From an uncultured Clostridium sp. (GTDB lineage: Bacteria; Bacillota; Clostridia; Lachnospirales; Lachnospiraceae): a stretch of DNA of 64,000 nt. The stretch covers positions 110,161 through 174,160 of the forward strand of contig UPYT01000002.1 of assembly GCA_900538475.1 (NCBI GenBank), read 5' to 3'. The notes beneath the pieces were generated by a model that worked only from the letters and a program-made list of their open reading frames with translations, was not told the DNA's origin and made no database searches. This document shows positions 43,757 to 64,000 of the stretch, piece by piece. A program made the translations under genes and the position numbers. Position 1 is the stretch's first letter. Every line of letters starts with the position of its first letter.

Positions 43757-44872
43757 ATGAGTCTGAAATATACCTGCCCCAGCTGTGGAACCCCCTTGGG
43801 TTATGAGGGATTGTGTTGGAAATGTAAGTGCGAGCAAGAACGGCAAGCTGCTCTTGCCTGGACGCCGGAACAAATCACGAAGAAACAGAAAAACCTGATC
43901 CAGAACATCCAGAGGCTGGCTGACATGGAGGACCCAGAGTTCGCCGACTTTTGGCAGCTGCTTGGCTACCATGATGCCATCACCTCGGAGATTCAGCGAG
44001 TGGCACTGGCCGCAGAGGTGTTCTGGCCCTGTGAGCTCTATTATCACGCTCCCGCCGATGTGCGGGATGGTCTGATCCATGCGCTGTTGTCCGCGGAATA
44101 TTCCAGCGCAGCCTCCAACCTGATGAGTTGCCTTGCTATGCAGGGAGATGACAAGGCAATGGAGACGCTGCTGGAGCTGGAGCGAAATCCCCGGCCCTGG
44201 CGCAAGGGCCTCTATGTGGACCCATCCAGCTATGCGCAGATCGGAGGCTGGACCTTCAACAAGGAGGGCCAGAAAATCCAACTCAACTTCGACACTTGCT
44301 ATCCTATGGTCAAAGGAACCACCGATGAGAAATCTCCCGTCCGCATTGGCCGGGCAAGGGAGGACACATGCCCCCACTGTGGCGGGCGCATGGTGGACAT
44401 GCTGGTATTGGACGGCCGGGATGAGCGGCTCCGGTTCCTGGGACTGGACGGCATCTTGACCGCCACCTGCTGCCCCAGCTGTGTGGGATTTCTCAAAGGC
44501 CCCGCCTTCAACCGGTTCACCCTGGATGGCGGCGTGGAGGTCTTCCCCTCCGAACTCTTTGACGGGGCGGAGAAGACGGATTGCTATGTCAGTCCCGAGG
44601 ACTACAAGGCCCTCACGGAAAATCCCTTTGTGCTGGGCGAAGCGCCTGTGCCCCTGTTTTACGGCGCGGCCTGCCAGGATGTGAACACCATCGGCGGCTT
44701 TGCCAACTGGGTGCAGGACGCGGAATATACCACCTGCCCCCACTGCGGCAAACCCATGAAGTATCTGGCTCAGATCCAGTGGGATACGGTGTTTGATTGT
44801 GCGGAGGGCACGCTCTATGTGGAGTTCTGCTCGGACTGCCAGATCGTATCCATGCAGCACCAGCAGACCTGA
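43757..44872 (+). CDS. Zinc-ribbon immunity-type protein
   Basis: 371 residues. An N-terminal zinc ribbon (CPSCGTPLGYEGLCWKCKC) is followed by a helical region, then a second CPHCGGRM site with CCPSC, and a third CPHCGKPMKYL with CSDC near the C-terminus. The end (NTIGGFANWVQDAEYTTCPHCGK ... WDTVFDCAEGTLYVEFC) resembles the last part of DUF1963-type immunity proteins. First large gene of the array; ATG 43757 follows AAAGGAGT. Confidence 0.65.
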   Translation: MSLKYTCPSCGTPLGYEGLCWKCKCEQERQAALAWTPEQITKKQKNLIQNIQRLADMEDPEFADFWQLLGYHDAITSEIQRVALAAEVFWPCELYYHAPADVRDGLIHALLSAEYSSAASNLMSCLAMQGDDKAMETLLELERNPRPWRKGLYVDPSSYAQIGGWTFNKEGQKIQLNFDTCYPMVKGTTDEKSPVRIGRAREDTCPHCGGRMVDMLVLDGRDERLRFLGLDGILTATCCPSCVGFLKGPAFNRFTLDGGVEVFPSELFDGAEKTDCYVSPEDYKALTENPFVLGEAPVPLFYGAACQDVNTIGGFANWVQDAEYTTCPHCGKPMKYLAQIQWDTVFDCAEGTLYVEFCSDCQIVSMQHQQT

Positions 44873-44886
44873 GAGGAGACCTTGCC

Positions 44887-46269
44887 ATGAGTTTACCAAA
44901 GCGTGACGGCGTACATGACCGCTACTATCTGATCCACAAGCCGGACACCTCCCCGGAGGTGCTGGCAGAGGCGGATCTCTGCATTCAGGATGTACTGAAT
45001 GGCACCGCCCGTGAAAATCACTCCGCCTACCCGACCGTAGTGCGAAATCACAACGGGACACCGTTTCTTCCCGATCAACTGCTGGAGCGGTATCTGACCG
45101 GTCTGCCGTTGAAGGAATTTCCCTGCGATGTTGCTGTTTCCCTATGCGATGCCATGCGGCGGCTGGTTGGCTGGGAAGAGATCCGCTATACATTGGAGAA
45201 GTACATAGAAAAGCAGGTGCAGGAGCGGTTCTTCCTTGTGGGAGAGCGGGATGATGGCTTTACCGTCTTCCCGCCCTGTACAGTACTGCCAGAATTGCAT
45301 CCGGAGGATGTGGATGAAGGTCTGCTGCGCTTTGCCTGCTATGTGGCGATCTGCCATACGGTGTATGGGCAGAGTTTTGAATCCCTCACCACTGAACACA
45401 TCCTTGGCCTGATTTCCCAGATTCGTCCTGACATGGTAAAGGAACTGAAAACCAATGGTAGCGGCAAATTGCCGCCTAATATCCAAAAGCGGAAAACAAA
45501 GCACCTGACCGCCTCGGCTAACGACGCTTTCGCCACCATCCGCATTACCGCCAGGGACTGCGGCGAGGGGGCCTGTGAGGAGGCTCTCAGCTATCTGATT
45601 GAGATTTTGGAGCAGCCGGAGTTCCCCCACAGCTACTCCATCGAGTTTCGCGGACCAGAGAAGATCTACCTGCCCATCCCCGGCCTGCCCAAGAAGGGTG
45701 TCCATCAGCTTTTTGCCTGTGCGGTGCGGTATCCCCGTCTCCATGTCCGGATGGAGAATTATGCTCGGCTGGCCATGCAGGAGGACGAGTGGTACAACAA
45801 CCTCTCTGATGAGTCCTGCGCCATGCCTGGCACCTTTGCCGTGTTTGCCCTGGGACTGGAAGGGCCGAAGTGGTGGCGGCTGGTGTGCGATTACCTGGAT
45901 CGCTGTGATGACGAGCACTCCTCTTTGCAAGAAAAGTTTATTCACACCTTTTTTAAGAAGTACGGGTTTACTGCTCAGTCCCTGCCGGTGCTGGTCCACG
46001 GTGTCCAGTCCATGCAGAATCTGAAGCCCGCAAAGGAGTTCCGCACCCTGATCGCCAATGAGGAGAGCCTGGATGCGCTACTGGAGATCAAGGGGCATCT
46101 GGAATATTACCTGTCGGAAGAATCCGGCAGCAATAAAAGGGCGCTGGCCTACCTGTGGCGTGATGTGCTCTGGGCCATCTGGGGCACAGCCTCTGAAAAC
46201 GGCGGCAGCAAGGTCATCAAGACGGCGCCCAAGGAACTGAAAGAGAAATACCAGCAGGTATTTGCGTGA
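44887..46269 (+). CDS. Large immunity-array protein, DUF6138-like
   Basis: 460 soluble residues. Segments such as EGLLRFACYVAICHTVYGQSFESL, HILGLISQIRPDMVKELKTNGSGKLP and HQLFACAVRYPRLHVRMENYARLAM give a helical protein resembling DUF6138; I am not certain. ATG 44887 lies 12 bases after the previous stop with GAGGAGA between. No enzyme motif seen. Confidence 0.6.
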   Translation: MSLPKRDGVHDRYYLIHKPDTSPEVLAEADLCIQDVLNGTARENHSAYPTVVRNHNGTPFLPDQLLERYLTGLPLKEFPCDVAVSLCDAMRRLVGWEEIRYTLEKYIEKQVQERFFLVGERDDGFTVFPPCTVLPELHPEDVDEGLLRFACYVAICHTVYGQSFESLTTEHILGLISQIRPDMVKELKTNGSGKLPPNIQKRKTKHLTASANDAFATIRITARDCGEGACEEALSYLIEILEQPEFPHSYSIEFRGPEKIYLPIPGLPKKGVHQLFACAVRYPRLHVRMENYARLAMQEDEWYNNLSDESCAMPGTFAVFALGLEGPKWWRLVCDYLDRCDDEHSSLQEKFIHTFFKKYGFTAQSLPVLVHGVQSMQNLKPAKEFRTLIANEESLDALLEIKGHLEYYLSEESGSNKRALAYLWRDVLWAIWGTASENGGSKVIKTAPKELKEKYQQVFA

Positions 46270-46281
46270 GGAGGAAGTAGA

Positions 46282-46515
46282 ATGAACAGCGAACAGGTCA
46301 CAGCATTTTTGCAAGAGCATTGGTATATTGCCTCGGTGCTCATCGGGGTCGTGATTTTAATTGGAGCGATCCGCAACTGGAACTGGCTCTGCAATCCCAC
46401 TGGTACGCGAGATGCCCACCGCCACAGCAGAGGATACCGGCGGGTGGTGTTCTTCCTGCTGGGTGTCCTCCTGATTGTGGTGAGCATCTGGGGATTTGTG
46501 CTGAAATTGAAGTAG
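46282..46515 (+). CDS. Imm17-like two-helix membrane immunity protein
   Basis: 77 residues with two helices (YIASVLIGVVILIGAI and VVFFLLGVLLIVVSIWGFVL) around NWNWLCNPTG...HRHSRGYRR. The GAIRNWNWLCNP block is typical of Imm17. Membrane immunity proteins of this size protect against pore-forming or envelope-acting toxins. GAGGAAG precedes ATG. Confidence 0.75.
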   Translation: MNSEQVTAFLQEHWYIASVLIGVVILIGAIRNWNWLCNPTGTRDAHRHSRGYRRVVFFLLGVLLIVVSIWGFVLKLK

Positions 46516-46528: not shown

Positions 46529-46741
46529 ATGACTCAAGAAGAACAGATCCGACTCTATCGGCTGATGGAAAAACTCAACTGGTTTTTCCACCAAGAGATG
46601 CACTACCTGAATAGAGATATTGCGGAAAAGACCGCACGGGAGTGTTACCCGGAGATTCGGGATTTTACATACGACATTTTATGGAACGACCTGCCCAAAG
46701 AGATCCAGAAGCAGCTCATGGACGAGGAGGAATCCCTATGA
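46529..46741 (+). CDS. Small helical hypothetical protein
   Basis: 70 residues, charged and helical (YRLMEKLNWFFHQEMHYLNRDIAEKTARE, then FTYDILWNDLPKEIQKQL). I do not recognise it. TAGGAGG lies about 11 bases before ATG; its stop overlaps the next start by 4 bases, so it is part of the array operon and presumably an immunity protein. Confidence 0.65.
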   Translation: MTQEEQIRLYRLMEKLNWFFHQEMHYLNRDIAEKTARECYPEIRDFTYDILWNDLPKEIQKQLMDEEESL

Positions 46742-47148
46742 GTACGCTGATTTGCTCTTTTGATGGTCTGCACGACAACAGAGTCCTGCGCTACTGCGCT
46801 GACTTTGAATCCCATTCCCTGCACATGGATACCCAGACTGAGGCCGGAGAGAAAGTATCCGTTCACTTCACCGGCCTGCTGGCCCACTGGTTCAAGAATG
46901 TGATCCAGGACAACATCCTCTTTGGCATGGACGAGATCACCGTGGACGGTTTTTTTGAACAGTATAAAGACCTGCTGGACGGTACCATCCCTTACGGCTT
47001 TCCCGCCTGTTGCGGCATCGAGGAGCTACGGGAGCGCATGGACCGGGAGCACATCCGGGTATTTGTCATTGACTCATCCCTTGGGCTGTGCGGATTTGTC
47101 CTGGCTAAGGAGGTGGAACTGCAATGTCAATCACTGCTTATAAAATAG
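46738..47148 (+). CDS. Unrecognised immunity-array protein
   Basis: 136 residues from ATG 46738, which overlaps the previous stop (ATGA); the longer frame from 46642 is inside that gene. It is acidic with ITVDGFFEQYKDLLDG and a C-terminal RVFVIDSSLGLCGFVLAKEVEL. No known family. The end overlaps the next gene by 25 bases. Confidence 0.6.
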   Translation: MSTLICSFDGLHDNRVLRYCADFESHSLHMDTQTEAGEKVSVHFTGLLAHWFKNVIQDNILFGMDEITVDGFFEQYKDLLDGTIPYGFPACCGIEELRERMDREHIRVFVIDSSLGLCGFVLAKEVELQCQSLLIK

Positions 47149-47711
47149 AAGCCGTCGGCCATGACCGAACCGGCAAGAACTTCGGCTATGTGAATATCAT
47201 GTATCGTTATGGCAACAAGCAATCCTTCCCCCGACCGGATCAGTGCGAAAAGATGGAAGTCATGTGGGCGAATGAGAGCGTCTATGGACCTCCTGCTCCC
47301 GGCAGCAAGGTGGGCGATTTTATACAGACATGGCTGATGGGCTCCCGGAACTGCGGCGTGTTTACCCACCGGGAGATCGCCCAGCGGCTGATGGATGCCT
47401 TCACTGGCCTGAAACTCAAGGAGCTGGAATGGTTCGAGAACCCCAGAGAAAAGACGCTGAAAAACGGAAAGCCCCGTGCGCACCAGGCCAAGTGGATGCC
47501 GGAGCGGGAGGTAGATCTGGTGTACCTCTACTCCGACCACTATCTTGACGCAAGAAATCCGACTCCCACCGAAACCGACTTCTTCACGGTTACAAGGATG
47601 GATGCCTGGGGCATGAGCACCTGGTTTATGTGTACCCCACAGGCCGCTGAAAAGCTGATCGCCATGGATTACGATAATCTGGCTATCCAGGAAACCACCA
47701 TTGTGGGATAA
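47124..47711 (+). CDS. Unrecognised immunity-array protein
   Basis: 195 residues, mixed alpha/beta, with FGYVNIMYRYGNKQSFPRPDQ at the start and CGVFTHREIAQRLMDAFTGLKLKELEWFENP in the middle. The ATG at 47124 follows AAGGAGGTG. No motif recognised; assigned to the array by overlap with its neighbour and shared codon use. Confidence 0.65.
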   Translation: MSITAYKIEAVGHDRTGKNFGYVNIMYRYGNKQSFPRPDQCEKMEVMWANESVYGPPAPGSKVGDFIQTWLMGSRNCGVFTHREIAQRLMDAFTGLKLKELEWFENPREKTLKNGKPRAHQAKWMPEREVDLVYLYSDHYLDARNPTPTETDFFTVTRMDAWGMSTWFMCTPQAAEKLIAMDYDNLAIQETTIVG

Positions 47712-47725: not shown

Positions 47726-48067
47726 ATGATTGGGACAGATGAAAACCGGGCGGTGCTCCATGTGGAGGTCATCTTCTGGGGCGGCAAGAGAAAGGCTCCC
47801 CCCAGCCTGGTCAGCGGAAAGTATTGTCCCCATTTTGTGGTTATTGGAACTACGGAATATCTGGGGGTATGCTTTCTGGACGGAGACGAGTGTGCATTTG
47901 ATGAACCGGCTTTGGGAAATGCCCAGCCCCTCTATCCAGATACCATTGACTATGCTCCGCTGGAAAACAATGCGGAATTTTTGATCTATGAGGGAGCCAA
48001 TGCCGTTGGCAAAGGCCGGGTGCTGGGCCGGACCGTTCCCTATCAAGTGAAACAACAACGAAAGTAG
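47726..48067 (+). CDS. EF-Tu-like beta-barrel immunity protein
   Basis: 113 residues. VLHVEVIFWGGKRKAPPSLVSGKYCPHFVV, YLGVCFLDGDE and EFLIYEGANAVGKGRVL follow the pattern of small proteins built like the C-terminal barrel of EF-Tu. In toxin-immunity loci these may act as EF-Tu mimics or simply as immunity proteins; which is unknown. AGAGGAG precedes ATG 47726. Confidence 0.65.
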   Translation: MIGTDENRAVLHVEVIFWGGKRKAPPSLVSGKYCPHFVVIGTTEYLGVCFLDGDECAFDEPALGNAQPLYPDTIDYAPLENNAEFLIYEGANAVGKGRVLGRTVPYQVKQQRK

Positions 48068-48074
48068 GTGTCTT

Positions 48075-49154
48075 ATGTACCAAATTGCATATATTGGCCG
48101 CTGGGAGACAATCCCGGAAACGGCTGCCGCCATCTGTGACCATGACACTCCCAAGCTGGAGGCGCTGCTTCAAGGCGGTCTGGATTTAGATGTTCCCATC
48201 CAGCTCAGCGAATACATCAAGCTGATGCCATTGGAGATCGCGGTTTTTCGGAATGATGTGCCTATGATCCACTTCTTGCTGGAGCATGGAGCTGATCCCG
48301 GTTTGGCAGAGGAACAGCCCCTGCTGCTCACCGCCGCCCGCTGCTGCGGGCCGGAGGTTGTCTCCCTCTTTGCTGGACAGGCCGCAAAACTCAGCCCGAA
48401 GCAGAAAGAGCGGGCCTTCCAGGAAGTGCGCTGGGGCAAGCGCCCGGAGAATATCCAGGTGCTGGAGCAAGCCGGGATCACTGTGGACAAGTTTGGCAGC
48501 GAGGCATTCCGGGCGGCGGTGTCCGATGGACAGGCCGAGCTTGCCAAACTGCTGCTGGAAAAAGGGGCGGATATCAATTACCACAAGCCGGACATGGTGT
48601 TCCCTTACGCCTCCACCCCTGTCACCGAGGCCGCCCGCTCCAACAATTTCTCCATGGTGCGCTGGCTGGTGGAACAGGGAGCGGATATCACCATTGTTGA
48701 CAAATACGGCGACCGTCCCTACAGTGTGGCAGTTCAAAACAAGAATCAAGAGATGGCCGACTACCTGAAGGCGCTGGAGCCGGAGGAATGGCACAACGAG
48801 CAGGAAAAGATCCGGCAGCTCATGCCCTACAAGCTGCCTGCCAAGCTGGTGGAATACTTGAAGACTGGCCCCCTGCGGCTGGAGTTCCCGGAGCAGGAGT
48901 GGGTAAAGTGGGCAGAGCTGTATTCCTACATGGATGTGCAGGAGATGACCTGGAAACGGAAGAAGCTGCTCTCCCTGATGGTGCAGATGGACAACTACAG
49001 CGACTATCTGCTGCTGTGGAGCCCCAGGGACAAAAAGCTGTGGTATCTGGATATCGAGCATGAGGAATTCCACCCGCTGGCCAAATGGGATGACTTCATC
49101 GCAGACCCTGGCCGGTATTTGAACGGAATGATCGAGGGTGAGTTTGAGGAGTAA
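48075..49154 (+). CDS. Ankyrin-repeat protein with SUKH-like C-terminus
   Basis: 359 residues. At least three ankyrin units are visible (MPLEIAVFRNDVPMIHFLLEHGADPG, AFRAAVSDGQAELAKLLLEKGADIN, PVTEAARSNNFSMVRWLVEQGADI). The last 100 residues (DNYSDYLLLWSPRDKKLWYLDIEHEEFHPLAKWDDFI) look like the end of a SUKH/SMI1-type domain. Ankyrin proteins are common in immunity loci and can bind toxins directly. Confidence 0.75.
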   Translation: MYQIAYIGRWETIPETAAAICDHDTPKLEALLQGGLDLDVPIQLSEYIKLMPLEIAVFRNDVPMIHFLLEHGADPGLAEEQPLLLTAARCCGPEVVSLFAGQAAKLSPKQKERAFQEVRWGKRPENIQVLEQAGITVDKFGSEAFRAAVSDGQAELAKLLLEKGADINYHKPDMVFPYASTPVTEAARSNNFSMVRWLVEQGADITIVDKYGDRPYSVAVQNKNQEMADYLKALEPEEWHNEQEKIRQLMPYKLPAKLVEYLKTGPLRLEFPEQEWVKWAELYSYMDVQEMTWKRKKLLSLMVQMDNYSDYLLLWSPRDKKLWYLDIEHEEFHPLAKWDDFIADPGRYLNGMIEGEFEE

Positions 49155-49158: not shown

Positions 49159-49779
49159 ATGACATCAATAGACTTTCTGAACAAGGTACATAAAAGCCTG
49201 GACTCGCAGGAATATAGCCTTTCTTATTCTCCGGCCAAGTCCAAGAATTATATGCTGTACTGCAACGGCAACTTCATCGGCGGCCTGTTCGATGAGGAGC
49301 TGTGCTTCGTCTACGCCGACAGTGTGAGTGAGCTGCTGGGGCAGCCGGAACCCATCTACCGCGGCTACTCCAGCACCGCCCAGCACAGGATGCTGGTGAT
49401 CCCGGAGAAACACTGGGCAAAGGCGCTGAAACTGCTCTATGCTGAGAAATTCGACTGGAGCCGTTTGGTGTACGACATCACATACACCAGCATTGGTGCG
49501 GCTGTGGTGGAGGACTTCTACGACGAGAATGTGGTATTCCTGCGCTTCTGCTTTGAAAAGGAACTGCTGAAAAAGAATCCTCTGGACCGGCATGGCCGTA
49601 TCCTGCGGATGGTCTATCTCAATCAGGACCTGACAGAAGCGGGCAAATATCTGTTCCCCAGACTGCTGCAAAAGTTCCTTGTTTTTACAGATTGCAAAGG
49701 AAAAACCAGTCTGGAAACCATGCTGAATCGGTGGTACACTGCGCTGGAGAAGGAGTACCGCAGCCAAACAGCAGGATAA
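49159..49779 (+). CDS. Unrecognised protein with TfoX-like N-terminus
   Basis: 206 residues from ATG 49159. The N-terminal YSLSYSPAKSKNYMLYCNGNFIGGLFDEELCFVYADS has the strand-turn-strand layout of TfoX-N-like domains, though without the typical Met-Met-Gly. The rest is helical. No known immunity family named with confidence. Located 4 bases after the ankyrin gene. Confidence 0.6.
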   Translation: MTSIDFLNKVHKSLDSQEYSLSYSPAKSKNYMLYCNGNFIGGLFDEELCFVYADSVSELLGQPEPIYRGYSSTAQHRMLVIPEKHWAKALKLLYAEKFDWSRLVYDITYTSIGAAVVEDFYDENVVFLRFCFEKELLKKNPLDRHGRILRMVYLNQDLTEAGKYLFPRLLQKFLVFTDCKGKTSLETMLNRWYTALEKEYRSQTAG

Positions 49780-49791: not shown

Positions 49792-50382
49792 ATGACAGAA
49801 GAAAACAAAACCTACATCACCCATCTCAAGGTCACAGATGTCCCGTGGCACCGGCTCACCACCGCCTATGGCCGGGGGACGGATTTTCCCGCACACCTGA
49901 CAGTGTTGGAGCAGATGCGTGATTTGGCGTCCGTCAAAGAGTCCCTCTACGAGCTCACCACCAACATGGAACACCAGAGTACCCTCTGGCACACCACCCC
50001 CTTCGGCATGGTGTTTCTGAGCCGAATTCTGGAGAAGGCCCTCGCAGACAGCGAGCAGAACCCCGCAGCCCATTTCCTGGCCGGGGAACTGCTGGACTTC
50101 TTTGCCTGCATCCTCCAGTGCTTCCACGATGGAGATGAGATGGAGCACGCCGAGGCACTGCCGCAGTTCTCCGATCTGCTGAAAGAAGAATACCTGTGGT
50201 CGGAGGAATACGACGAGGAAGAAGATGAGATGCGCTACGAGGAGGACGAGGTCTTCCCCGATGACCTGTTCTACAGCTTCTATTACTACTCCTGGCAGGC
50301 GGTGCTGGCCTGCCGGGATATATTGGAGCAGGCCCCGGCGGAGTTTGCCGAGCCTGCCGCCGCAGTGCTGAAACTGCTGTAA
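49792..50382 (+). CDS. Acidic immunity-array protein
   Basis: 196 residues with a helical body (MRDLASVKESLYELTTNMEHQ) and a very acidic stretch (EEYDEEEDEMRYEEDEVFPDD). Strong acidity is common in immunity proteins that mask nucleases or DNA-binding toxins. No family recognised. AAGGAGGCGG precedes ATG 49792. Confidence 0.6.
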   Translation: MTEENKTYITHLKVTDVPWHRLTTAYGRGTDFPAHLTVLEQMRDLASVKESLYELTTNMEHQSTLWHTTPFGMVFLSRILEKALADSEQNPAAHFLAGELLDFFACILQCFHDGDEMEHAEALPQFSDLLKEEYLWSEEYDEEEDEMRYEEDEVFPDDLFYSFYYYSWQAVLACRDILEQAPAEFAEPAAAVLKLL

Positions 50383-50395: not shown

Positions 50396-51235
50396 ATGTT
50401 TGAAGAATTTTATGAGATGTACGAGCCCGAGGAGCAGGAAGTGGTCGCTCTGATCAATCGCTGCATTGGAGGCGGATATAACCGGAAAGGAAACTTTTGG
50501 GAAATGACCGTTGTGACGCTGGGCGTGGTATTTTGTGACACCGGCAAGGTCAGCACCAAAGAGGAGCGGCTGGAGTGGCCGGTCACCGATGAGGAGCATA
50601 ACAGCGAAAAGGGCTGGGAACGCTTTCAAAACGAGCAGATCTGCCGCCTGAAGATCCGCCGGATGAAAGAGGAATGGGAAAAAGATCTGGTGGCATGGCC
50701 CTGGTGTATCTCCCAGGTGGTCAAGGCCCACGAGGACTGTCCGGAACTTCAAGCCGTTCTGGACGTGTACCACAAGCCAGTGGTGATCCAGGACCAGGTG
50801 CTGGGAGAACTGACACTGGACAAGGACTATGATGCCTTCGAGGGCGAAATCCAGTGGTGTGGAAAGGATGTGAGCCTTTCTCTGGAGGTCAATGCTGAGA
50901 GCAAGCCATCCTGGACCCGTGCCCGCAGCGCCGCCAAGAAGCTGCTGGCCAACTGTGAAACCTGGGACAAAGCCATGCGGGAGCTTGCAGCAAAGAACCT
51001 GACCGAACTGGCTAACAACTGGCTCTCCCAAGATGAAGAAAATCCCCGTGACCCGGAAACAGACCCCATCACAGAGGAAGAACTCACCCGGCGGATCAGC
51101 ATGACGAGCCTGTCCGTCACCTCCGGCGGCAGCTTCACCGCCTGGTTTGACTGCGACGAGATCTTCACCGACCATGCGGTAACGGTCTACGGCTCTTTGA
51201 AAAAGGGTCTCAAAACTGCCAACATTGAGGGGTAA
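50396..51235 (+). CDS. DUF2262 immunity-type protein
   Basis: 279 residues. VLGELTLDKDYDAFEGEIQWCGKDVSLSLEV, WDKAMRELAAKNLTELANNWL and FTAWFDCDEIFTDHAVTVYGSLKKGLKTANIEG form a full DUF2262 domain in the C-terminal half; the N-terminal 120 residues are specific. DUF2262 is a frequent member of poly-immunity loci. AAAGGAG lies before ATG 50396. Confidence 0.8.
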   Translation: MFEEFYEMYEPEEQEVVALINRCIGGGYNRKGNFWEMTVVTLGVVFCDTGKVSTKEERLEWPVTDEEHNSEKGWERFQNEQICRLKIRRMKEEWEKDLVAWPWCISQVVKAHEDCPELQAVLDVYHKPVVIQDQVLGELTLDKDYDAFEGEIQWCGKDVSLSLEVNAESKPSWTRARSAAKKLLANCETWDKAMRELAAKNLTELANNWLSQDEENPRDPETDPITEEELTRRISMTSLSVTSGGSFTAWFDCDEIFTDHAVTVYGSLKKGLKTANIEG

Positions 51236-54174: not shown

Positions 54175-54179
54175 GCCCT

Positions 54180-56251: not shown

Positions 56252-57121
56252 ATGGCTCTACAAGATAAGAAAATAATGCCTCCCCCTTGGCTGGCCCACC
56301 GGGAGATCGAGCGATACTCCATTGGCTGGCGCATGGGCTATGGGGAGGATTACATAGACCGATTTGGCGATTGGCTGGACACCCTCTCCCCGGAGGAGCG
56401 GACGGAATACCGCACCCTCTTTCCCGAGCCGGTGACCTGGAAGGGCTGGTGGGATGACGAGGACAGCAGCGAGGTACTGGAGCATGGTGACTTCTTGGTG
56501 GATGCGTGGCAGCCGGAAGGCCAGCCCAAGTACACCCGCCAGTGGCTCCAGCAGGAGTTTGCCGCCGGGCGGAAGCGGGAGCTGTGCCTGTTCTGGGGCC
56601 ATCAGCCTTCCGAGGACGGCCAGCTGACAAAAAGCTGCCTCAGCCAGTGGTGGATGGAGGACTTCTATACGACGGCTGACTCCTACCTCTGCATGGAGCA
56701 GTATATGATGGCTGCCAAGGCCGAGCTGTTCGGCGACAAAGAGATCCGGGACCAGATTTTGAAATGCAGCGACCAAAAGCAGATCAAGGCTCTGGGCCGC
56801 AAGGTGCGGGGCTTTGAGCAGAAGGTATGGGACAAGTTCAAGTACGCCATTGTGCTGCTTGGCAACTGGCACAAATTCAGCCAGAACCGCGACCTGCGCG
56901 AATTTCTTCTCTCCACCGGAGATAGTGTGCTGGTGGAGGCCAGCCCCTATGATGCCATCTGGGGTATCCGCCTCGCGGCCAGCTCCCCGGAGGCCCAGGA
57001 CCCCATGAAGTGGCGGGGACAAAACCTGCTGGGCTTTGCGCTGATGGAGGTGCGGGACGAGCTGCGCCGGGTGACACAGAATGAAATGCTTTGCGATTGG
57101 AGTATGGTATGGGAACAATGA
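56252..57121 (+). CDS. NADAR-domain protein
   Basis: 289 residues. After about 100 specific residues, a complete NADAR (YbiA-like) domain: LCLFWGHQPSEDG, YLCMEQYMMAAKAELFGD, KALGRKVRGFEQKVWD, LLGNWHKFSQN, VEASPYDAIWGIRLA and GQNLLGFALMEVRDEL. NADAR enzymes cleave N-glycosidic bonds of ADP-ribose-type substrates, and members are known to remove ADP-ribose placed on nucleic acid by toxins. In this array it would be an enzymatic immunity to ADP-ribosylating toxins (inference). Its stop overlaps the next ATG. Confidence 0.85.
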   Translation: MALQDKKIMPPPWLAHREIERYSIGWRMGYGEDYIDRFGDWLDTLSPEERTEYRTLFPEPVTWKGWWDDEDSSEVLEHGDFLVDAWQPEGQPKYTRQWLQQEFAAGRKRELCLFWGHQPSEDGQLTKSCLSQWWMEDFYTTADSYLCMEQYMMAAKAELFGDKEIRDQILKCSDQKQIKALGRKVRGFEQKVWDKFKYAIVLLGNWHKFSQNRDLREFLLSTGDSVLVEASPYDAIWGIRLAASSPEAQDPMKWRGQNLLGFALMEVRDELRRVTQNEMLCDWSMVWEQ

Positions 57122-57567
57122 AACTTTATGAACTGGTTAACCACTATCACATCGGTACGGAACTGACCTGCGCCGAGGCGATGTTTATGGCCTGTAACGA
57201 GTATTACCATCTGAATTTGTCTGAGGAGACCCGGAAGATGTTCTCCGTCATGGGGCTTGGAATGCAAACCGAACATTCCTGCTGCGGCGCCTTCACCGTT
57301 GCGGTAGGGATCATCGGTCTGATGACCGCCAAGGAGGGCCAGACCGATGTGGACAACATAGAAGGCTACCGGATGATTGATGAATTGACGGACTTTATGT
57401 TGGACTTTTACGGAACGCTCCATTGTGTCGAACTGCAACAACTGGAAATCGTAGGTTATGAAAACCCATGCCACGCCATTGTGGAGGCACTGGCCAAAAA
57501 GCTGGAGGAGCTGCTGGCGAACCGCAGGATCTTTTGCCCGGCAAACGGAGGACAACTGAGCTGCTGA
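57118..57567 (+). CDS. C_GCAxxG_C_C-like cysteine protein
   Basis: 149 residues. ELTCAEAMFMACNEYY, then SVMGLGMQTEHSCCGAFTVAVGIIGLM, and later LHCVELQ and ENPCHAIV give the spaced Cys of the C_GCAxxG_C_C redox-type family, with CCGAF in place of GCAxxG. ATG 57118 overlaps the NADAR stop (ATGA). A role in metal or redox chemistry is possible. Confidence 0.7.
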   Translation: MKLYELVNHYHIGTELTCAEAMFMACNEYYHLNLSEETRKMFSVMGLGMQTEHSCCGAFTVAVGIIGLMTAKEGQTDVDNIEGYRMIDELTDFMLDFYGTLHCVELQQLEIVGYENPCHAIVEALAKKLEELLANRRIFCPANGGQLSC

Positions 57568-57590: not shown

Positions 57591-58301
57591 ATGAAAGACT
57601 TTTCCCAATACGGAAACAGACCGGACGACCAGTGGGAAATGCTGCCCTGGATACCCGATCCGCGTCCGCCCTTCAAAATCTGGGTGAAGCCGGAGCAGAT
57701 TGCGCCATTCTTTCTCATTCCCCACCACCCCTATGCGCTCTCTCTTCTGCTTAAAATCAACGATGGATTCCGGACGGAAGAATTCCGTCGGCTGGGACTG
57801 ACTGGAAACAGCGGAGACTGGGAGCGGCTGGTCCGGGGCGTGATACGGGAGTTTGAGGAAAACAACAGCGGTGTGGGTCTGTTTCACTTCGACTCTGACG
57901 AGGATGTGTTCTGCGTGTATTCCCAATACATCGACGATTTGATGATGCTGGCCAAAATGATCCGAGCAGCCTGTGCTGATGAAAAAACGATGCGGACTTA
58001 TCTTGGCAAAATCGAGTACATCAAGCTCTTTTGGGAGGACGCACCGGAGGGAGAACCACCGGTCATCCTCTATGAAGTGGATACCGAGAATGAGCGTCTG
58101 GCCCTCCGCTCCATCGACATCTTTGCAGATGGACGCACCCGCAACATCCCTGACCTTTACGACGGCGCCATCGAGATTACGCCGATCCCTACGGTGGAGG
58201 AATTGAACGCCCATGTCTGGGGCGAGGAATTCCACGCCTGCGTCATAGAGAAAGCGGAATTTGAGGCCATCTGGGAAAGCCACACCTATAATGGAGCATG
58301 A
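57591..58301 (+). CDS. Imm51-like domain fused to DUF6881-like domain
   Basis: 236 residues. Residues 25-130 (FFLIPHHPYALSLLLKINDGFRTEEF, NSGDWERLV, GVGLFHFDSDEDVFCVYSQ) fit the Imm51 pattern. Residues 142-236 (YIKLFWEDAPEGEPPVILYEVDTENERLALRSIDIFADG, FEAIWESHTYNG) fit DUF6881. The two are usually separate genes, so this is a fusion. ATG 57591 follows GAGGG; ATG 57567, overlapping the previous stop, is the alternative. Confidence 0.75.
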   Translation: MKDFSQYGNRPDDQWEMLPWIPDPRPPFKIWVKPEQIAPFFLIPHHPYALSLLLKINDGFRTEEFRRLGLTGNSGDWERLVRGVIREFEENNSGVGLFHFDSDEDVFCVYSQYIDDLMMLAKMIRAACADEKTMRTYLGKIEYIKLFWEDAPEGEPPVILYEVDTENERLALRSIDIFADGRTRNIPDLYDGAIEITPIPTVEELNAHVWGEEFHACVIEKAEFEAIWESHTYNGA

Positions 58302-58322: not shown

Positions 58323-59273
58323 ATGAACAAACCTATAAAAGCCAAAAATCTGCCGTTGTTCCCCATCATTGACCTGGACCAGCTGCGCCGGGAAAACCAT
58401 CTGGAGGGCACAGAGGTGACAGACTTTTTCACGGCAAGGGATGGAAAAGTCTATCTTCTCATGGAACAGCCGACCGAAACACAGGGTAAGGACTGGCTCA
58501 GCACCCCTTCCACCTATACCGCAGTGGAAATCCAGCTGGATTGGGCGGAACAGCGGGTGCTGGAAACGACGCTGTTTCCTCTTGGCCTCTTGAAGTTCCA
58601 GTTCCATTATTTGCGGCCCGCAGGTGATCACTTCCTCCTGCTGGGGGCAAGATGCGCCTATCGGGAAAACGGCCCCGACCAGAACGCCTGGATCGTCAGC
58701 CGGGACGGAGCTGTGCTGTCCCGTTTCTGCCTGGGAGATGGCATTCAAGACTGCGTGGTAAAAAAAGATGGTACCATCATTACCAGCTACTTTGACGAAG
58801 GTGTATTTGGTAATTACGGTTGGGATGAACCTCTGGGCGCTTGCGGCCTGATTGCATGGACATCGGAGGGAACTCCTCTCTGGAAGAATGAGAAGTATTC
58901 CATCTATGACTGCTATGCCATCAGCCTGGACGAAGAAGAAAACCTGTGGTTTTATTATTATGATGAATTCCGGCTGGTGCGGACGAACTTCAAAGAGGAT
59001 CTTGTGTTTGAACTGCCAATCGAAGGAAGCGGAGCTTTTTCTGTTGCCCCGTCCGGCAATGCCTTCCTGTTTCAAGGCGGATACCAGCAACGGGACAAAT
59101 TCTACTTCCTTACCGCTCATGGGGATCGCCTTGGGCAAAAGCGGGAGGCGATTCCCACCTGTGACGGAAACAAGGTCGCTGTGGAGCAGTGCAGCCTGCT
59201 TTGCAGCCAGATGCTGTTCCTCGGGAAAAACGGCGTTCTCTATGGCGGGGTACTTGGTGAAAGCGAGGAATGA
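58323..59273 (+). CDS. Beta-propeller-like immunity-array protein
   Basis: 316 residues made of repeated strand units of 40-45 residues (TDFFTARDGKVYLLM, HFLLLGARCAYREN, CVVKKDGTIITSYFDEG, AISLDEEENLWFYYY, FSVAPSGNAFLFQGG, QMLFLGKNGVLYGG), consistent with a propeller. No catalytic motif. GGAGGAG lies before ATG 58323; the end overlaps the next gene by 4 bases. Confidence 0.65.
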   Translation: MNKPIKAKNLPLFPIIDLDQLRRENHLEGTEVTDFFTARDGKVYLLMEQPTETQGKDWLSTPSTYTAVEIQLDWAEQRVLETTLFPLGLLKFQFHYLRPAGDHFLLLGARCAYRENGPDQNAWIVSRDGAVLSRFCLGDGIQDCVVKKDGTIITSYFDEGVFGNYGWDEPLGACGLIAWTSEGTPLWKNEKYSIYDCYAISLDEEENLWFYYYDEFRLVRTNFKEDLVFELPIEGSGAFSVAPSGNAFLFQGGYQQRDKFYFLTAHGDRLGQKREAIPTCDGNKVAVEQCSLLCSQMLFLGKNGVLYGGVLGESEE

Positions 59274-59962
59274 CAATGGTTGAGATCAATCGTGTCTGGC
59301 TCAATGTGGATACAGACACCAACAAAATCACACTATTCAGCCGTCCCCGTGTATCCATCCGTGTAGAAGAGTACATTTGGAGTTTGATCGAAGAACATAT
59401 CGTGAAGCCCCATAAGCTCATGCGCAGTGAAAAGCACAAGTATCTGCTGAAAATTGCCTTTGGCCGGTTTGATTCGGTGCGGCACCGATATTATCCGCTT
59501 TCCCCGTACAACGGGCCGCTTCGGGAAGGCGTCAAGCCGGACAGCGCAAACGGATGGTATCCCCGTGAGGACTTTGCAGGCTCTGAGGAACGCACCACCT
59601 GGTTCTCTCCCGATAAAATCTGGACAAACTGCGGCAACAAGGTTCTGGATGTCAATATTGATGCCGCCAATGTGAGCGAGAGCATCACCCCCAGAGAATA
59701 CGCAGACTTGCTGTTCGATGGGATTGGGGCAGCATTGGTGTTTAACTTCAAAAGGCTCAAGCGCGAGGAGTTTGATGGGCTGAAACCCAAGATCGACTGG
59801 AGCGTGGTAGAAAGCTTCCCCTTCCCTGTATCCTTTGAGGAGCAGCAGTACATTGGGGACGAGGGCAAAATTCATGTGTATTCCTGGGATGGCCGACAGG
59901 AAACAACCCTTGTAGGTCCTTATTCCGTGCGGGAATTGTATCTGGAACATTTCGGAGAATAG
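59270..59962 (+). CDS. Unrecognised immunity-array protein
   Basis: 230 residues, soluble. KYLLKIAFGRFDSVRHRYYPLSPYNGP and ITPREYADLLFDGIGAALVFNFKRLKREEFDGLK are the most distinctive stretches. No family named. ATG 59270 overlaps the propeller gene's stop; ATG 59276 is the alternative. Confidence 0.6.
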   Translation: MTMVEINRVWLNVDTDTNKITLFSRPRVSIRVEEYIWSLIEEHIVKPHKLMRSEKHKYLLKIAFGRFDSVRHRYYPLSPYNGPLREGVKPDSANGWYPREDFAGSEERTTWFSPDKIWTNCGNKVLDVNIDAANVSESITPREYADLLFDGIGAALVFNFKRLKREEFDGLKPKIDWSVVESFPFPVSFEEQQYIGDEGKIHVYSWDGRQETTLVGPYSVRELYLEHFGE

Positions 59963-59974: not shown

Positions 59975-61105
59975 ATGGCAAAGGGCATTCGTGAACGCCT
60001 GCTGGAGCAGGCAGGAAAATTTCATCAGTGGCAGGAAATCACTTATCCCGGAAAAACCACCGAGGAGATTGGCGGTGCGTGGGAGGTCGATTACCCTGCG
60101 TGGAATGATATATTTGATGCCTTTTGCCATGTGTTGACCCAAATGGATGCAGAAATGGCAGACAGCTTTCTGCTGGATAAGATGGTCTATTTAATTGCCA
60201 GAGCCAACGAAGCGGAAGGATTTATACAGGAAACCACTTCCCATCCCAAATGGTTTGAGTGCCTCTGCCGCAGGGCCGCAGCCTCCAATGAGAGTGAGGC
60301 CAAGTGGCAGTTTGCCGCCTATCTGCCGGAATGCTCATGCAGCCAGGAAGTCAGGGATATGATTCTGGATTTCGCAAAGGACCCCAATGAATATGTGAGC
60401 CGTCGGGCGCTTTTGGCGATGCCCGCTCTGCGTCCTGACTGTGTGGAACAGTTCGCTCCGCTGTTTTGGGAGCGGAACTGTTACTCTCCTGAACTTCAGG
60501 AATACCAGCGGATCGCCGTTCTGGTCTCACTGGATGCCATCCATTCCGACCTGCTTCCTCAATACTTGGAGCAGGCCAAGCAGGATGGCCGGCGCTATCT
60601 GCTGGAACACGCAAAAAGGATTGAAGGAGAACTTACTATGAATGAAACTCTGACCTCCCCTGCCTACCACGGCTTCTTACCTCCCCATAGCCAAGAAAAG
60701 CAGATCGACCTCACTCCCAACCTATATACCCAGAGTGGCGAAAAGATTCACCTGGCTTTCCTGCCCCTTCGTCCGGACTATGGGAATGACCCACAATGGG
60801 AGGACTGGAACTGCTACCGCTCCATCCTCACCATTGGCTGGCCGGACTGTGAACAACTGCTGATTCCCACGCTGAAACAAATCTTTCCGGTTAAGGACCC
60901 CACCAATGGAGAAGTACAGGAGGAATTTGACCTCTGCTTTGACAACTGGATTGGGAAAGAGGACTGGGAACGCTGGATAGTCCTTGTCCGAGGTAACTTA
61001 TCGAGTATGGTCACAGAGGAATCAATCTTTCTTCAATCCATCTTGGAGTGGATTGAAACGGCATTGACCTATACCAGCGTAATCGTGGTAGAAGGAAACC
61101 TATAA
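59975..61105 (+). CDS. HEAT-like protein fused to a second immunity domain
   Basis: 376 residues in two parts. Residues 1-220 are helical with HEAT-like units (VRDMILDFAKDPNEYVSRRALLAMPALRPDCV). Residues 222-376 begin with MNETLTSPAYHGFL and contain YRSILTIGWPDCEQLLIPTL and WERWIVLVRGNLSSM, a separate domain. ATG 60638 at the border has AAGGAG 9 bases upstream, so two adjacent genes may have merged, or both long and short products are made. Confidence 0.65.
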   Translation: MAKGIRERLLEQAGKFHQWQEITYPGKTTEEIGGAWEVDYPAWNDIFDAFCHVLTQMDAEMADSFLLDKMVYLIARANEAEGFIQETTSHPKWFECLCRRAAASNESEAKWQFAAYLPECSCSQEVRDMILDFAKDPNEYVSRRALLAMPALRPDCVEQFAPLFWERNCYSPELQEYQRIAVLVSLDAIHSDLLPQYLEQAKQDGRRYLLEHAKRIEGELTMNETLTSPAYHGFLPPHSQEKQIDLTPNLYTQSGEKIHLAFLPLRPDYGNDPQWEDWNCYRSILTIGWPDCEQLLIPTLKQIFPVKDPTNGEVQEEFDLCFDNWIGKEDWERWIVLVRGNLSSMVTEESIFLQSILEWIETALTYTSVIVVEGNL

Positions 61106-61155: not shown

Positions 61156-62004
61156 ATGGATGTAATCAAACTACCAAAAAAATTTCGCATGGTCTGCTAT
61201 GAGATCATGGATGGCAAAGCAGGAGCCTTGGACACCCTGGAATCCTTTGCTGATAAATATCCCCATCAGGTAGCAGCGGTCAAGGCCGAGGTTGCCTATT
61301 TCAATCTGGACTATGAAAAGGCGCTGGCTTTGGATCTGACCATCCTTCCCTGGTTGGAGGAGTGGTATTACAGCAATGTGAGCGATGAACACATGATCGC
61401 CATGACAGTGGCCGCCATCCAGCTCCACCGTGAGCAGGAGCTGATTGAGGCGCTGACGAAAGAACAGGTGCGCATCCGGGCTGAGAATGGCCTCCCCCAG
61501 CGGGATCGTTTCTGTGACATCCTGATGGACTACCTCAAGCGGGGCGTTATGCCCTTTGCGGACAACGACAAGAACTACCCCTACCATGAACCGGAGGAAC
61601 CACAGACAAAGGAGCAGCTCTGGGCAAAGCTGGCGGAGCAGCATAAAAAGCTCTCGCCGGGCGATCCCGATGCCAGGCGGAAGCTCTACAACCATTGCTG
61701 TATGTTCGGAACTGCCAGGGATGCCGTAGATCTCTTCGAGGAGATTCAGGGCGTCCCCATGGCTGACTCCTCCTATCGGGACGCAATCGCCCGCTATCTC
61801 TATCTGGGCGAGCGGGAGAAGGCGCTCCAGACAGCGGAGCGGGTGGCAATATCGCGGCTGTGGGCGGTTGCCGGGCCGACGCAGGTGCGTCCCATGTCCT
61901 TCTTTGAGGACCCAAACCTGCGGGAGTTTTTGCTGGAGCCGGAATCCCTCCGGCGCATCCGGGAGGCTGCAATCATTGATGACGGGAGTTTGATCCGAAA
62001 GTAA
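61156..62004 (+). CDS. TPR-like helical protein of the immunity array
   Basis: 282 residues, helical, with tetratricopeptide-like pairs (HQVAAVKAEVAYFNLDYEKALALDL, HMIAMTVAAIQLHREQELIEAL, ARDAVDLFEEI). Not assigned to a named family. AGGAGGAAG precedes ATG 61156. Confidence 0.65.
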   Translation: MDVIKLPKKFRMVCYEIMDGKAGALDTLESFADKYPHQVAAVKAEVAYFNLDYEKALALDLTILPWLEEWYYSNVSDEHMIAMTVAAIQLHREQELIEALTKEQVRIRAENGLPQRDRFCDILMDYLKRGVMPFADNDKNYPYHEPEEPQTKEQLWAKLAEQHKKLSPGDPDARRKLYNHCCMFGTARDAVDLFEEIQGVPMADSSYRDAIARYLYLGEREKALQTAERVAISRLWAVAGPTQVRPMSFFEDPNLREFLLEPESLRRIREAAIIDDGSLIRK

Positions 62005-62029
62005 ATTACTTGGGAATGGAGGATTTAAC

Positions 62030-62380
62030 ATGAGTAAGGAACTTGAACTATATAAAGCATTTATTGACGGTCTTGTGGAGCGGAAAGATAGTATAACGGC
62101 CCGGTGGGTCAAGGGGGATGGTTTCCCCAAGACAGAGGACAACAAGGCAAAAAATGAACTTCTCGCCACACTGACCCCGGAGCAGAAAAGTGTGCTGGCC
62201 GAGATGCTTCAGGACGAACATATTGCGGGTATCCATACTACCCTTGCTTATATCAATAAAATGATGGACTTGGATGGATTGGAGCTTCATCAGGACGGTG
62301 AATCCTATCCCAACGACTATTTTGAGAGCCTGCACTATGACTTCATCAGCCGTTGCGACGGAGATGAGTGGCCGGAATAA
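62030..62380 (+). CDS. DUF6547 family protein
   Basis: 116 residues. YKAFIDGLVERKDSITARWVKGDGFPKTEDNKAKNELLATLTPEQKSVLAEMLQDEHIAGIHTTLAY and SLHYDFISRCDGDEWPE match DUF6547, a single-domain family of immunity loci. GGAGG lies before ATG 62030. Confidence 0.8.
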   Translation: MSKELELYKAFIDGLVERKDSITARWVKGDGFPKTEDNKAKNELLATLTPEQKSVLAEMLQDEHIAGIHTTLAYINKMMDLDGLELHQDGESYPNDYFESLHYDFISRCDGDEWPE

Positions 62381-62395
62381 CAGGAGGTGTGACAA

Positions 62396-63595
62396 ATGTA
62401 TAGCAAAGAATACTATAACCTCTTTGCCATTTACCTGCACTGGTGTATGGAGCATGACCTGATGGGCGAGGATTTTCTGAAAGAATATGGCGAAGTGTTC
62501 AAACAGGTCAAAGCCGACCCTGCCAGTGTGGATCTGCGGGCGTTTATTCGGGACGAACTGAACGGGCAGATTATGGTTCCGATGTTCAGTAAGATTGGGC
62601 GAGCATTCACTTCTTACTACTATGGCGAACCTGATAGTCCCAATTTTCCCCGTGACATTGAAAACTATGCCTTGGAATATCTCGGCCCAGAAAAGTATTA
62701 CTCCGATGAGTTCCAGTTTAAGGCCCCACTGTTCATCCCCTTTGACGAGGACTACTACCAGGCCATGGCAAAGGTGATCGAGAAACGCTTCACTAACTGG
62801 CAGGGACAGGAGTTCGACGAGGATACGCTGGAGCCCTCCGAAGTGGCTGAGGCTTTGATGGAGTATCTGGACTGTGAATGCACCTATTTCCCCTCCATGA
62901 AGGACGATGATCCCATTATGTCGGCATACAGCTACGCCAAACGGGAAAGTGTCAAAGAAGGCTTTGTGCCGGTGCTCATCCGGGCGGATGACGAAACGCT
63001 GTTGGAGTGTCTGGTGATGAACGCCGACCCGGAGAACGATGCGGACTTTTACGAATTTGACCTCAAAACGGTAGAGGAGTATCGAAAGAAGATGCTCTCC
63101 GCCCCCATCAAGGACGGAAAGGCGGTTTTGGAGGAATTGACCGGCCAGCGCAAGGAAGAAGCCGAGGATGACGATATGGACTGGGAGGAGGAAGTCCTGG
63201 GCGAGATGGAGGGCGGAGAACCAAACGACCGCTTCTCCAGCTACTGGGATGATGATACGGAAATGACCTATCCGCTCATCCTGGCCAAGATACCGGTGAA
63301 GAATCCCTGGGAGATCTTCGCCTACCTGCCCTTCGGAAACTGGAACGACTGCCCCAACACCCCGGAGCTGATGGCTGCGGCCAAATACTGGTTCGAGCAG
63401 TACGGCGCGGTTCCTGCCGCCATGAGCCATGATGAGCTGGAGTTCCTGCTTCCGGCCCCCGTCCCCAAGGAGAAGGCCATGGATGTGGCGGTGGAACAAT
63501 ACGGTTTTTGTCCTGATTTGGACCAAAATGCAAGTATTGGCACTTTGGCTGATACTATATACCAATCCACCGTCTGGTATTTCTGGTGGGATTGA
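62396..63595 (+). CDS. DUF4253-domain protein
   Basis: 399 residues. The C-terminal 110 residues (PVKNPWEIFAYLPFGNWNDCP, ELMAAAKYWFEQYGAVPAAMSHDELEFLLPAPV, KAMDVAVEQYGFCPDLDQ, TLADTIYQSTVWYFWWD) are a clear DUF4253 domain. The N-terminal 280 residues are array-specific and acidic, with an EEAEDDDMDWEEEV linker. CAGGAGGTG precedes ATG 62396. Confidence 0.8.
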   Translation: MYSKEYYNLFAIYLHWCMEHDLMGEDFLKEYGEVFKQVKADPASVDLRAFIRDELNGQIMVPMFSKIGRAFTSYYYGEPDSPNFPRDIENYALEYLGPEKYYSDEFQFKAPLFIPFDEDYYQAMAKVIEKRFTNWQGQEFDEDTLEPSEVAEALMEYLDCECTYFPSMKDDDPIMSAYSYAKRESVKEGFVPVLIRADDETLLECLVMNADPENDADFYEFDLKTVEEYRKKMLSAPIKDGKAVLEELTGQRKEEAEDDDMDWEEEVLGEMEGGEPNDRFSSYWDDDTEMTYPLILAKIPVKNPWEIFAYLPFGNWNDCPNTPELMAAAKYWFEQYGAVPAAMSHDELEFLLPAPVPKEKAMDVAVEQYGFCPDLDQNASIGTLADTIYQSTVWYFWWD

Positions 63596-63618
63596 TGTGG
63601 GAGGTGCCCTGGCAAGCG

Positions 63619-63885
63619 ATGAAAACCAAAACACTGACCATTCAACTGAATGATGAACAACTGCCCATCCTCCCAGTGGAACTGGAAGCCCACCTCTCCT
63701 TTACTACTCATGCCGATGGAAATGAATTGGAGTTAACGGGAAACCGGGCGGGGCTGCTTCTATTGGCGAAAGCTGCTTTGGGTATGGCAGAAACCGTGCG
63801 TGAGGACGGATTCCACATCCATCTGGACGACTTGTATAGCATCAACGCCGAAGGAAAAAGCATCCTAATCCGAAAGGAGGAATAA
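63619..63885 (+). CDS. Imm32-like immunity protein
   Basis: 88 residues. TLTIQLNDEQLPILPVELEAHLSF, then ELELTGNRAGLLLLAKAALGMAE and HIHLDDLYSINAEGKSILIRK follow the Imm32 pattern (GN..GL...A, late H.H). ATG 63595, overlapping the DUF4253 stop by one base, would add eight residues and is an alternative start. Confidence 0.72.
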   Translation: MKTKTLTIQLNDEQLPILPVELEAHLSFTTHADGNELELTGNRAGLLLLAKAALGMAETVREDGFHIHLDDLYSINAEGKSILIRKEE

Positions 63886-63893
63886 TCAAAACC

Positions 63894-64000
63894 ATGATTG
63901 AAAAAACCTTTATCAACCCCACTACAAATAAGCAGTGGCGGATTCAAATTGACGGATATACCATCCGAACCTGTTTGAATGGCGGGAAGGTCAAGGAGAC
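63894..64000 (+). CDS. Partial gene cut by the window end, WGR-like start
   Basis: Thirty-five codons are visible from ATG 63894, with AAGGAGG 14 bases before. FINPTTNKQWRIQIDGYTIR resembles the start of a WGR-type domain (NK.W.I...G). Too short for a firm call; it shows that the array continues beyond the window. Confidence 0.5.
   Translation, partial: MIEKTFINPTTNKQWRIQIDGYTIRTCLNGGKVKE

Follow-up and report, generated by a model that had tools for sequence, protein, structure and literature searches.

A probable polyimmunity array with near-invariant gene order carried on a conjugative element of gut Clostridia

The DNA considered here, a window of 64,000 nucleotides from a contig of an uncultured Clostridium species, ends in an array of 33 co-directional genes, which is very probably a heterogeneous polyimmunity locus that an integrative and conjugative element (ICE) of gut Clostridia carries as cargo, the genes and domains of the locus serving as antidotes against incoming polymorphic toxins. 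From its sequence features the array looks like a real, functional-looking and mobile locus of this kind, and most of its members are candidate antidotes. What is new is a broad-host Clostridia version of polyimmunity loci, in which 76 families stand in near-invariant order and are gained or lost at gene borders, sometimes becoming fused. Two new pairings of toxin and immunity protein are candidates as well: that of DUF6881 with HYD1, seen at three loci, and that of the small protein g19 with TNT, seen at one.

The array (table 1) comprises 32 complete genes between 43757 and 63885 and a 33rd, beginning at 63894, that is cut by the end of the window; all lie on the forward strand, and the proteins measure 70 to 460 residues. 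The tight packing reported in a preliminary description of this DNA is confirmed, the 31 intergenic gaps having a median of 12 nt and a maximum of 50 nt, with seven overlaps among them, and a GGAG, AGGA or GAGG motif precedes 27 of the 32 gene starts. Long antisense open reading frames (ORFs) are also present in the array, the forward genes scoring better in a codon model that was trained on these same genes and hence is not independent of them. Thirteen genes have a Pfam match above the curated cut-off, to DUF6138, Ank, DUF7021 with DUF2262, SUKH-3, DUF1963, DUF5713, DKNYY, NADAR, C_GCAxxG_C_C, Imm51 with DUF6881, DUF6547, DUF7832 with DUF4253, and Imm32. Ten of the twelve families named in the preliminary description score above their cut-offs; Imm17 for g3 falls just below (23.0 bits against 25), and DUF2004 for g13, which has no Pfam match, comes from the NCBI name of 2 among the 120 homologues listed. 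Formally named immunity families in the array are Imm17, Imm32, Imm51 and SUKH-3 only. The Pfam scan of the 32 array proteins revealed no toxin domain, although the unnamed ones may still hide one, and no nuclease or helicase domain scored above the cut-off in the array proteins scanned, in keeping with what had first been noted; comparison of the array proteins with each other at E 1e-3 found no internal paralogues. In base composition the array (G+C 53.2%, 66% at third codon positions, 43.3% in its lowest single gene) differs from both the conjugative backbone (45.4% and 46%, the latter from seven genes) and the host flank (46.3% and 49%), and it therefore has a history of its own. The array extends beyond the window, since further families follow in its relatives; g33 is probably the 370-aa family that comes after g32 in the array of a Subdoligranulum plasmid.

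The evidence that these are immunity genes comes largely from their neighbours in other bacteria. When 82 family hidden Markov models (HMMs) were run against 131 stretches around the Rhs genes listed (683 kb, some overlapping), five of them matched, namely those for g19, DUF6881, g14, x61 and x46, and four of these families start 2-19 bp after the Rhs stop, with starts taken at the first ATG. In genome G279, 2 bp separate the stop of an Rhs gene with a TNT end (E 7e-37) from the start of a g19 homologue of 57% identity; in genome G223, DUF6881 follows an Rhs gene with a Tox-ART-HYD1 end (E 6e-39) at a distance of 19 bp, a Macro-domain gene coming next; and in genome G169 a weak SUKH-3 homologue of g14 (E 2e-4) follows, at 11 bp, a gene that we take to be Rhs, with an end that looks deaminase-like and has no Pfam match. 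The family x61, weakly similar to Imm30, starts 11 bp after another Rhs gene, and x46 was found 1.1 kb downstream of a third. On plasmids of Paraburkholderia and Microvirga, annotated HYD1 toxin genes share their last 4 bp with DUF6881, bringing the pairing to three loci in three bacterial classes, and in Rhizobium it stands with genes for Imm53 and Imm8 (4 of the 12 plasmid records for DUF6881 were inspected). On a Cytobacillus plasmid, an LXG/HNH/YrhA module is followed, 2.7 kb on, by a homologue of g26. Judging from the Rhs and HYD1 neighbourhoods, several array families are probably immunity genes elsewhere. The preliminary description had proposed looking for the same genes next to toxins in other gut Firmicutes, and five families do stand beside Rhs toxins in other Clostridia; its wider proposal, that each unnamed gene is a candidate immunity family, gains toxin adjacency for g19 and for no other unnamed gene of the window. 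The nearest genome, G001, is a single contig rated complete and gave no match to LXG, WXG100 or the Rhs core, so the array families stand there without these toxin carriers; genome G233 gave no WXG100 or Rhs match and genome G389 no WXG100 match. Neither of the two findings that the preliminary description would have taken as counter-evidence was made, the arrays having yielded no toxin domain and G001 no match to these carriers. The Rhs core is present in 118 of 391 sampled Clostridia genomes and LXG, a rarity in the class, in 11 of 341; the likely pressure is from Rhs toxins rather than LXG toxins.

Two of these neighbourhoods deserve mention in their own right. The Macro-domain gene that follows the HYD1 toxin and DUF6881 (L169, 2017-2481) is possibly a second, enzymatic antidote, and in Rhizobium rhizogenes a g26 homologue (L077, 5818-6714) stands directly after an rtcB-family gene and beside rtcR, which hints at a link with RNA damage.

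Arrays of the same kind were found in G001, in G389, on a plasmid of Subdoligranulum variabile and, by way of g28, on genome contigs. Of the 40 loci retrieved with g28, we kept 29, from 16 named genera and a few unnamed ones, and dropped 11 that had little beyond a distant C part of g28, or a different array; the carriers include Faecalibacterium, Flavonifractor, Oscillibacter, Anaerotruncus, Emergencia and Enterocloster, together with one metagenome-assembled genome (MAG) of Sutterella. At least 10 array families occur in 25 of the 29 kept loci (L028, L039, L043 and L044 have 3-9), and 28 of the 32 array loci compared, the window included, contain 10 or more families from one common ordered set, which is therefore more than a chance grouping. 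There are 76 families that occur in at least two of the 32 loci, and their majority order is followed in 5679 of 5690 pair observations, 11 being discordant, once the rearranged Sutterella MAG and one duplicate are set aside; with both kept, 6108 pair observations agree and 90 do not. Fifty shuffled orders gave 1854 discordant observations on average, with a minimum of 1762. Gene content is strongly variable: the arrays of the window and G001, although carried on nearly identical elements, have 16 whole-gene families in common, with 15 and 19 private ones, respectively, and 19 of the 32 window genes have a G001 counterpart when partial matches are counted. The comparison of presence and absence suggested in the preliminary description was made between species rather than between strains of a single species, and it reveals variation. 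Alignment of the window array with the others gives 129 distinct ends, of which 87 fall no more than 15 bp from a gene border (7% of points placed at random do so), and dN/dS medians of 0.06-0.37, for the 30 of 32 genes that were measurable, indicate purifying selection. Hence, genes are gained and lost whole, and the rest stay intact.

The recurrent exceptions to breakpoints at gene borders lie inside g25 and g28, which are fusions of genes separate elsewhere: 13 of the 26 members of the g25 family are short (146-157 aa), the DUF6881 part being separate, and the N and C parts of g28 are separate or otherwise joined in other arrays. Likewise, the 315-aa DUF4241 protein of other arrays appears to combine g18 with a 243-aa gene, the intervening gene having been lost, and metagenome proteins combine g6 with g9, g9 with g20 and g11 with g9, possibly as assembly artefacts. 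The place of g31 is held in other arrays by one giant protein of 1.1 to 2.4 thousand residues (the family has 22 members, contig ends truncating some of them, and L041 holds a further 280-aa piece). Of the three giants scanned with Pfam, that of G001 contains Imm68, Imm33, TPR (weak), SUKH (SUKH-1/6), DUF4261, SUFU, DUF7832 and DUF4253; that of L026 has no SUKH match, DUF4259 at its start scoring just below the cut-off; and that of L035, cut by the end of the locus, has DUF4261, SUFU and DUF7832. The g31 of the window corresponds to the last two domains, at the C-terminal end of the giant, which by its domain content qualifies as what Zhang et al. (2012) call a polyimmunity protein. Domains of the Imm-NTF2, SUKH, UPF0167 and KptA families are found in proteins of other arrays.

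Three loci stand somewhat apart. A rumen Lachnospiraceae contig (L058) carries 25 small co-directional genes with a homologue of the g28 C part, no other array family having been found among them, and is perhaps a different polyimmunity array. Anaerotruncus colihominis DSM 17241 has two arrays of unlike gene content (L026 and L040) on one chromosome. The contig of the Sutterella MAG (L038), a genus of Pseudomonadota, presents array families in rearranged order, either by cross-phylum transfer or because the contig was mis-binned.

The Clostridia conjugative context that had been recognized upstream of the array is borne out by a MOBL relaxase (E 3e-31), a TraG-type coupling protein (T4SS-DNA_transf, E 1e-46), ArdA and a T2SSE ATPase, methylases being also present on this part of the element. 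Window positions 5374-46520, that is 41,147 bp ending with the third array gene, are 99.8% identical to G001, whereas the flank at 1-5373 has a single match there, a stretch of 68% identity in a T2SSE gene that we read as tadA of a tad locus; the hosts therefore differ. In both hosts the element starts inside an apparent Flp pilin gene of the tad locus (window 5250-5480), and at its far end in G001, about 83 kb on, lie the rest of the pilin gene, two Phage_integrase-family proteins and a DUF6262 protein, the right end being near C1:2142400 (L011); the far end of the element described here lies beyond the window. We read the element as an ICE of an integration type which we take to be Tn554-like. 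Its insertion in the pilin gene of two different hosts may break pilus formation.

Directly before the array lies a leader with a predicted intrinsic terminator hairpin of -25.9 kcal/mol, the T-rich tail of which stops 21 nt 5' of g1. This space is too short for a promoter, and therefore transcription of the array should pass the terminator; a consensus scan of 43000-44000, which also missed the leader hairpin, found no promoter-like site. The leader, of about 230 bp, is common to G001, G389 and the Subdoligranulum plasmid at 91-98% identity, the first gene after it being g1, g3 and g2, respectively. A fifth copy, in genome G335 (L106), precedes a gene that starts like g2, and its hairpin has kept a similar energy despite sequence changes. 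The terminator within the leader suggests attenuation of the array, presumably as in tet(M) of Tn916.

Table 1. Features of the window, with positions counted from its first letter
Feature	Position	Strand	Description
Conjugative backbone	5374..43302	+	ArdA 7386, T2SSE ATPase 15811, MOBL relaxase with Sel1 repeats 37361, Toprim 40234, TraG-type coupling protein 41239
Leader	43524..43756	+	-10-like TATAAT 43529-43534; 56-codon ORF 43571-43741; hairpin from 43686, T-rich tail ends 43735
g1	43757..44872	+	371 aa; several CxxC pairs, unnamed
g2	44887..46269	+	460 aa; DUF6138, Pfam E 5e-60
g3	46282..46515	+	77 aa; Imm17-like, below cut-off
g4	46529..46741	+	70 aa; unnamed
g5	46738..47148	+	136 aa; unnamed
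g6	47124..47711	+	195 aa; unnamed; joined to g9 in metagenome protein P0351
g7	47726..48067	+	113 aa; unnamed
g8	48075..49154	+	359 aa; ankyrin repeats; PADLOC candidate model E 4e-18
g9	49159..49779	+	206 aa; unnamed; AlphaFold2 (AF2) model pLDDT 86
g10	49792..50382	+	196 aa; unnamed
g11	50396..51235	+	279 aa; DUF7021+DUF2262
g12	51246..51608	+	120 aa; unnamed
g13	51621..52124	+	167 aa; homologues named DUF2004
g14	52136..52690	+	184 aa; SUKH-3
g15	52715..53563	+	282 aa; DUF1963
g16	53568..53861	+	97 aa; matches N-terminal 90 aa of 334-aa DKNYY protein of other arrays
g17	53848..54174	+	108 aa; DUF5713
g18	54171..54386	+	71 aa; Zn-ribbon-like; matches N-terminal 66 aa of 315-aa DUF4241 protein of other arrays
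g19	54391..54627	+	78 aa; unnamed; homologue beside Rhs-TNT toxin in G279
g20	54644..55243	+	199 aa; Zn ribbons, below cut-offs
g21	55246..55515	+	89 aa; unnamed
g22	55502..56236	+	244 aa; DKNYY
g23	56252..57121	+	289 aa; NADAR
g24	57109..57567	+	152 aa; C_GCAxxG_C_C
g25	57591..58301	+	236 aa; Imm51 + DUF6881 fusion
g26	58323..59273	+	316 aa; unnamed
g27	59276..59962	+	228 aa; unnamed; extra 141-aa N-terminal part in many metagenome homologues
g28	59975..61105	+	376 aa; N part 1-232, C part 222-376
g29	61156..62004	+	282 aa; unnamed
g30	62030..62380	+	116 aa; DUF6547
g31	62396..63595	+	399 aa; DUF7832+DUF4253
g32	63595..63885	+	96 aa; Imm32
g33	63894..64000	+	cut by window end; DNA 91.5% identical to Subdoligranulum plasmid array

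Some features of the backbone were noted in passing. At 35702-36262, an azaaromatic (yjdF) riboswitch (73.8 bits) lies directly 5' of a DUF2992 gene; the MOBL relaxase (37361-40237) is one protein of 958 aa with eight C-terminal Sel1 repeats; the T2SSE-type ATPase carried by the ICE (15811-17457) comes in addition to the T2SSE gene of the host (2052-3302); and an Amidoligase_2 gene (30872-31915) adjoins a gene for a HerA/TraG-like ATPase.

How would such an array work? Every gene, and in fused genes every domain, would encode an antidote that neutralizes the toxin domain at the C terminus of incoming polymorphic toxins, chiefly those of the Rhs type, and the carrier would survive attack without making toxins itself. 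Most antidotes would presumably bind their toxin, while NADAR, and KptA in other arrays, may instead reverse a modification. The array is probably one operon behind the terminator-ended leader, which transcription would have to read through, perhaps under attenuation. Conjugation would carry its copies to new hosts, and the copies would diverge through homologous exchange, the presumed route of recombination, and through whole-gene deletion, processes that would for this reason keep the order and place breakpoints at gene borders; some deletions would fuse neighbouring genes, producing two-domain antidotes.

Several observations weigh against this explanation. None of 12 LXG stretches held an array family, and the association of g19 with TNT is seen at one locus, just one of the six TNT matches in 4 of 109 genomes having g19 with it; nor was a TNT-like motif seen beside g19 homologues in Rossellomorea and Fusobacterium. 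The Rhs ends next to g14, x61 and x46 have no Pfam-named domain, the g14 match is weak, and x46 is not immediately adjacent to its Rhs gene. G389 possesses an array and one Rhs gene with no array family adjoining it, and among the inspected plasmid records an Enterobacter copy of DUF6881 has no annotated toxin beside it. Nine array proteins are longer than 280 aa, and proteins of the C_GCAxxG_C_C, NADAR and ankyrin types have other known roles. Moreover, candidate-type models of PADLOC match three of the ten array proteins (out of 32) that were run, namely g23 through NADAR (E 5e-45), g8 through Ank (E 4e-18) and g20 (E 1e-4), all under candidate-type names.

These matches, together with the methylases and ArdA that the ICE also bears, are what an anti-phage defence island would lead one to expect, that is, small defence systems gathered on a mobile element. 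Yet the other seven proteins had no PADLOC match at E 0.01, the scanned array proteins contain no nuclease or helicase above the Pfam cut-off, and five array families adjoin Rhs toxins, so that we consider such an island improbable, even if single members may have an antiphage role. The array could also protect against toxins of its own host or its own ICE, a cognate immunity gene beside the toxin being the usual case in polymorphic toxin systems according to the accessible text of PMC3482391, and the lone Rhs gene of G389 fits with this. Such self-protection is disfavoured and very improbable, however, since the genome G001, rated complete, is devoid of matches to the three toxin carriers searched, the arrays yielded no toxin domain, and array loci in 16 named genera have common genes whatever the host. 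Neutral decay, with the genes as unselected hitch-hiking cargo eroding by deletion, would account for the presence of fused genes and for g16, g18, g28 and g31 being shorter than in other arrays; it is also disfavoured and would in our judgement be the most surprising outcome of all, given the low dN/dS medians, the neighbours left intact where alignments end at gene borders, and the almost uniform gene order. A locus of antidotes against incoming toxins, therefore, accounts best for the array, and the immunity families above the Pfam cut-off, the five families beside Rhs toxins and DUF6881 beside HYD1 on two plasmids all argue for the polyimmunity character first proposed for it.

What is known of orphan immunity arrays comes mainly from Bacteroidales; here the same kind of armour is seen on conjugative DNA across many genera of the gut's Clostridia, which make up another large share of the gut community. 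The toxin neighbourhoods provide testable partners for families of no known function, such as DUF6881, g19, x61 and x46, with dozens more listed, and the fixed order combined with whole-gene turnover makes the growth of polyimmunity loci testable from sequence. A more far-reaching synthesis may be offered tentatively, as a possibility that we ourselves rather doubt. The arrays would form a class-wide, order-locked immunity library, in which elements of unrelated genera exchange antidotes, one gene or one domain at a time, at fixed positions by homologous recombination and neighbours fuse up to the giant of about 2 thousand residues. The leader ORF running through the terminator would turn the bank on when toxin entry disturbs translation, the whole being an inducible, horizontally updated bank of protection from neighbours armed with Rhs toxins, and the unnamed families would all be new families of antidotes, g19 acting on TNT NADases and DUF6881 on HYD1 ADP-ribosyltransferases.

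In the searchable part of the literature we found no published description of such an array in Clostridia and no paper mentioning DUF6881, but related systems are available for comparison. The closest likeness is with the polyimmunity loci of Zhang et al. (2012; PMC3482391), which, as far as the accessible text of that paper goes, also consist of co-directional small genes with tiny gaps and many unrelated immunity families, have no interleaved toxin and vary in content between relatives. Their Bacteroides example has 19 genes, against 33 here, and the present arrays have the same ordered set in many genera. The same text describes polyimmunity proteins of up to ten domains, with an example from Clostridium sp. 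L2-50, and considers that such proteins and extended loci might not occur in the same bacteria; here, in contrast, the giant protein stands within the extended locus, both in one locus. Carriage by an ICE or plasmid and a conserved leader terminator are further features of the present arrays that this text does not describe. In the portion available of PMC9484751, the type VII secretion system (T7SS) immunity gene strings of Firmicutes are, similarly, arrays shaped by homologous recombination; however, they consist of non-identical copies of one family (esaG), whereas our array has no internal paralogues.

The acquired interbacterial defence (AID) clusters of Bacteroidales, including the recombinase-associated ones (rAID), resemble the array in being mobile, co-oriented orphan immunity genes, SUKH included, that are common to several species of gut bacteria. 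They differ in that the hosts here are Clostridia and the cognate toxins so far are linked to Rhs, not to the type VI secretion system (T6SS). Unlike rAID clusters, the array has no tyrosine recombinase gene directly upstream, where a helix-turn-helix (HTH) protein and conjugation genes stand instead, and no conserved intergenic motif, only Shine-Dalgarno-type 8-mers recurring near gene starts in a search of exact 8-mers; its G+C of 53.2% contrasts with values below 41% in rAID. In Tn916, leader attenuation precedes the mobile cargo gene tet(M), and there, as here, a leader ORF overlaps a terminator directly 5' of the cargo; the cargo of the present element is an immunity array, and its attenuation is a prediction. 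Differing from rAID in these three features, the array is not a member of that group but the Clostridia counterpart, in its working, of the AID clusters of Bacteroidales.

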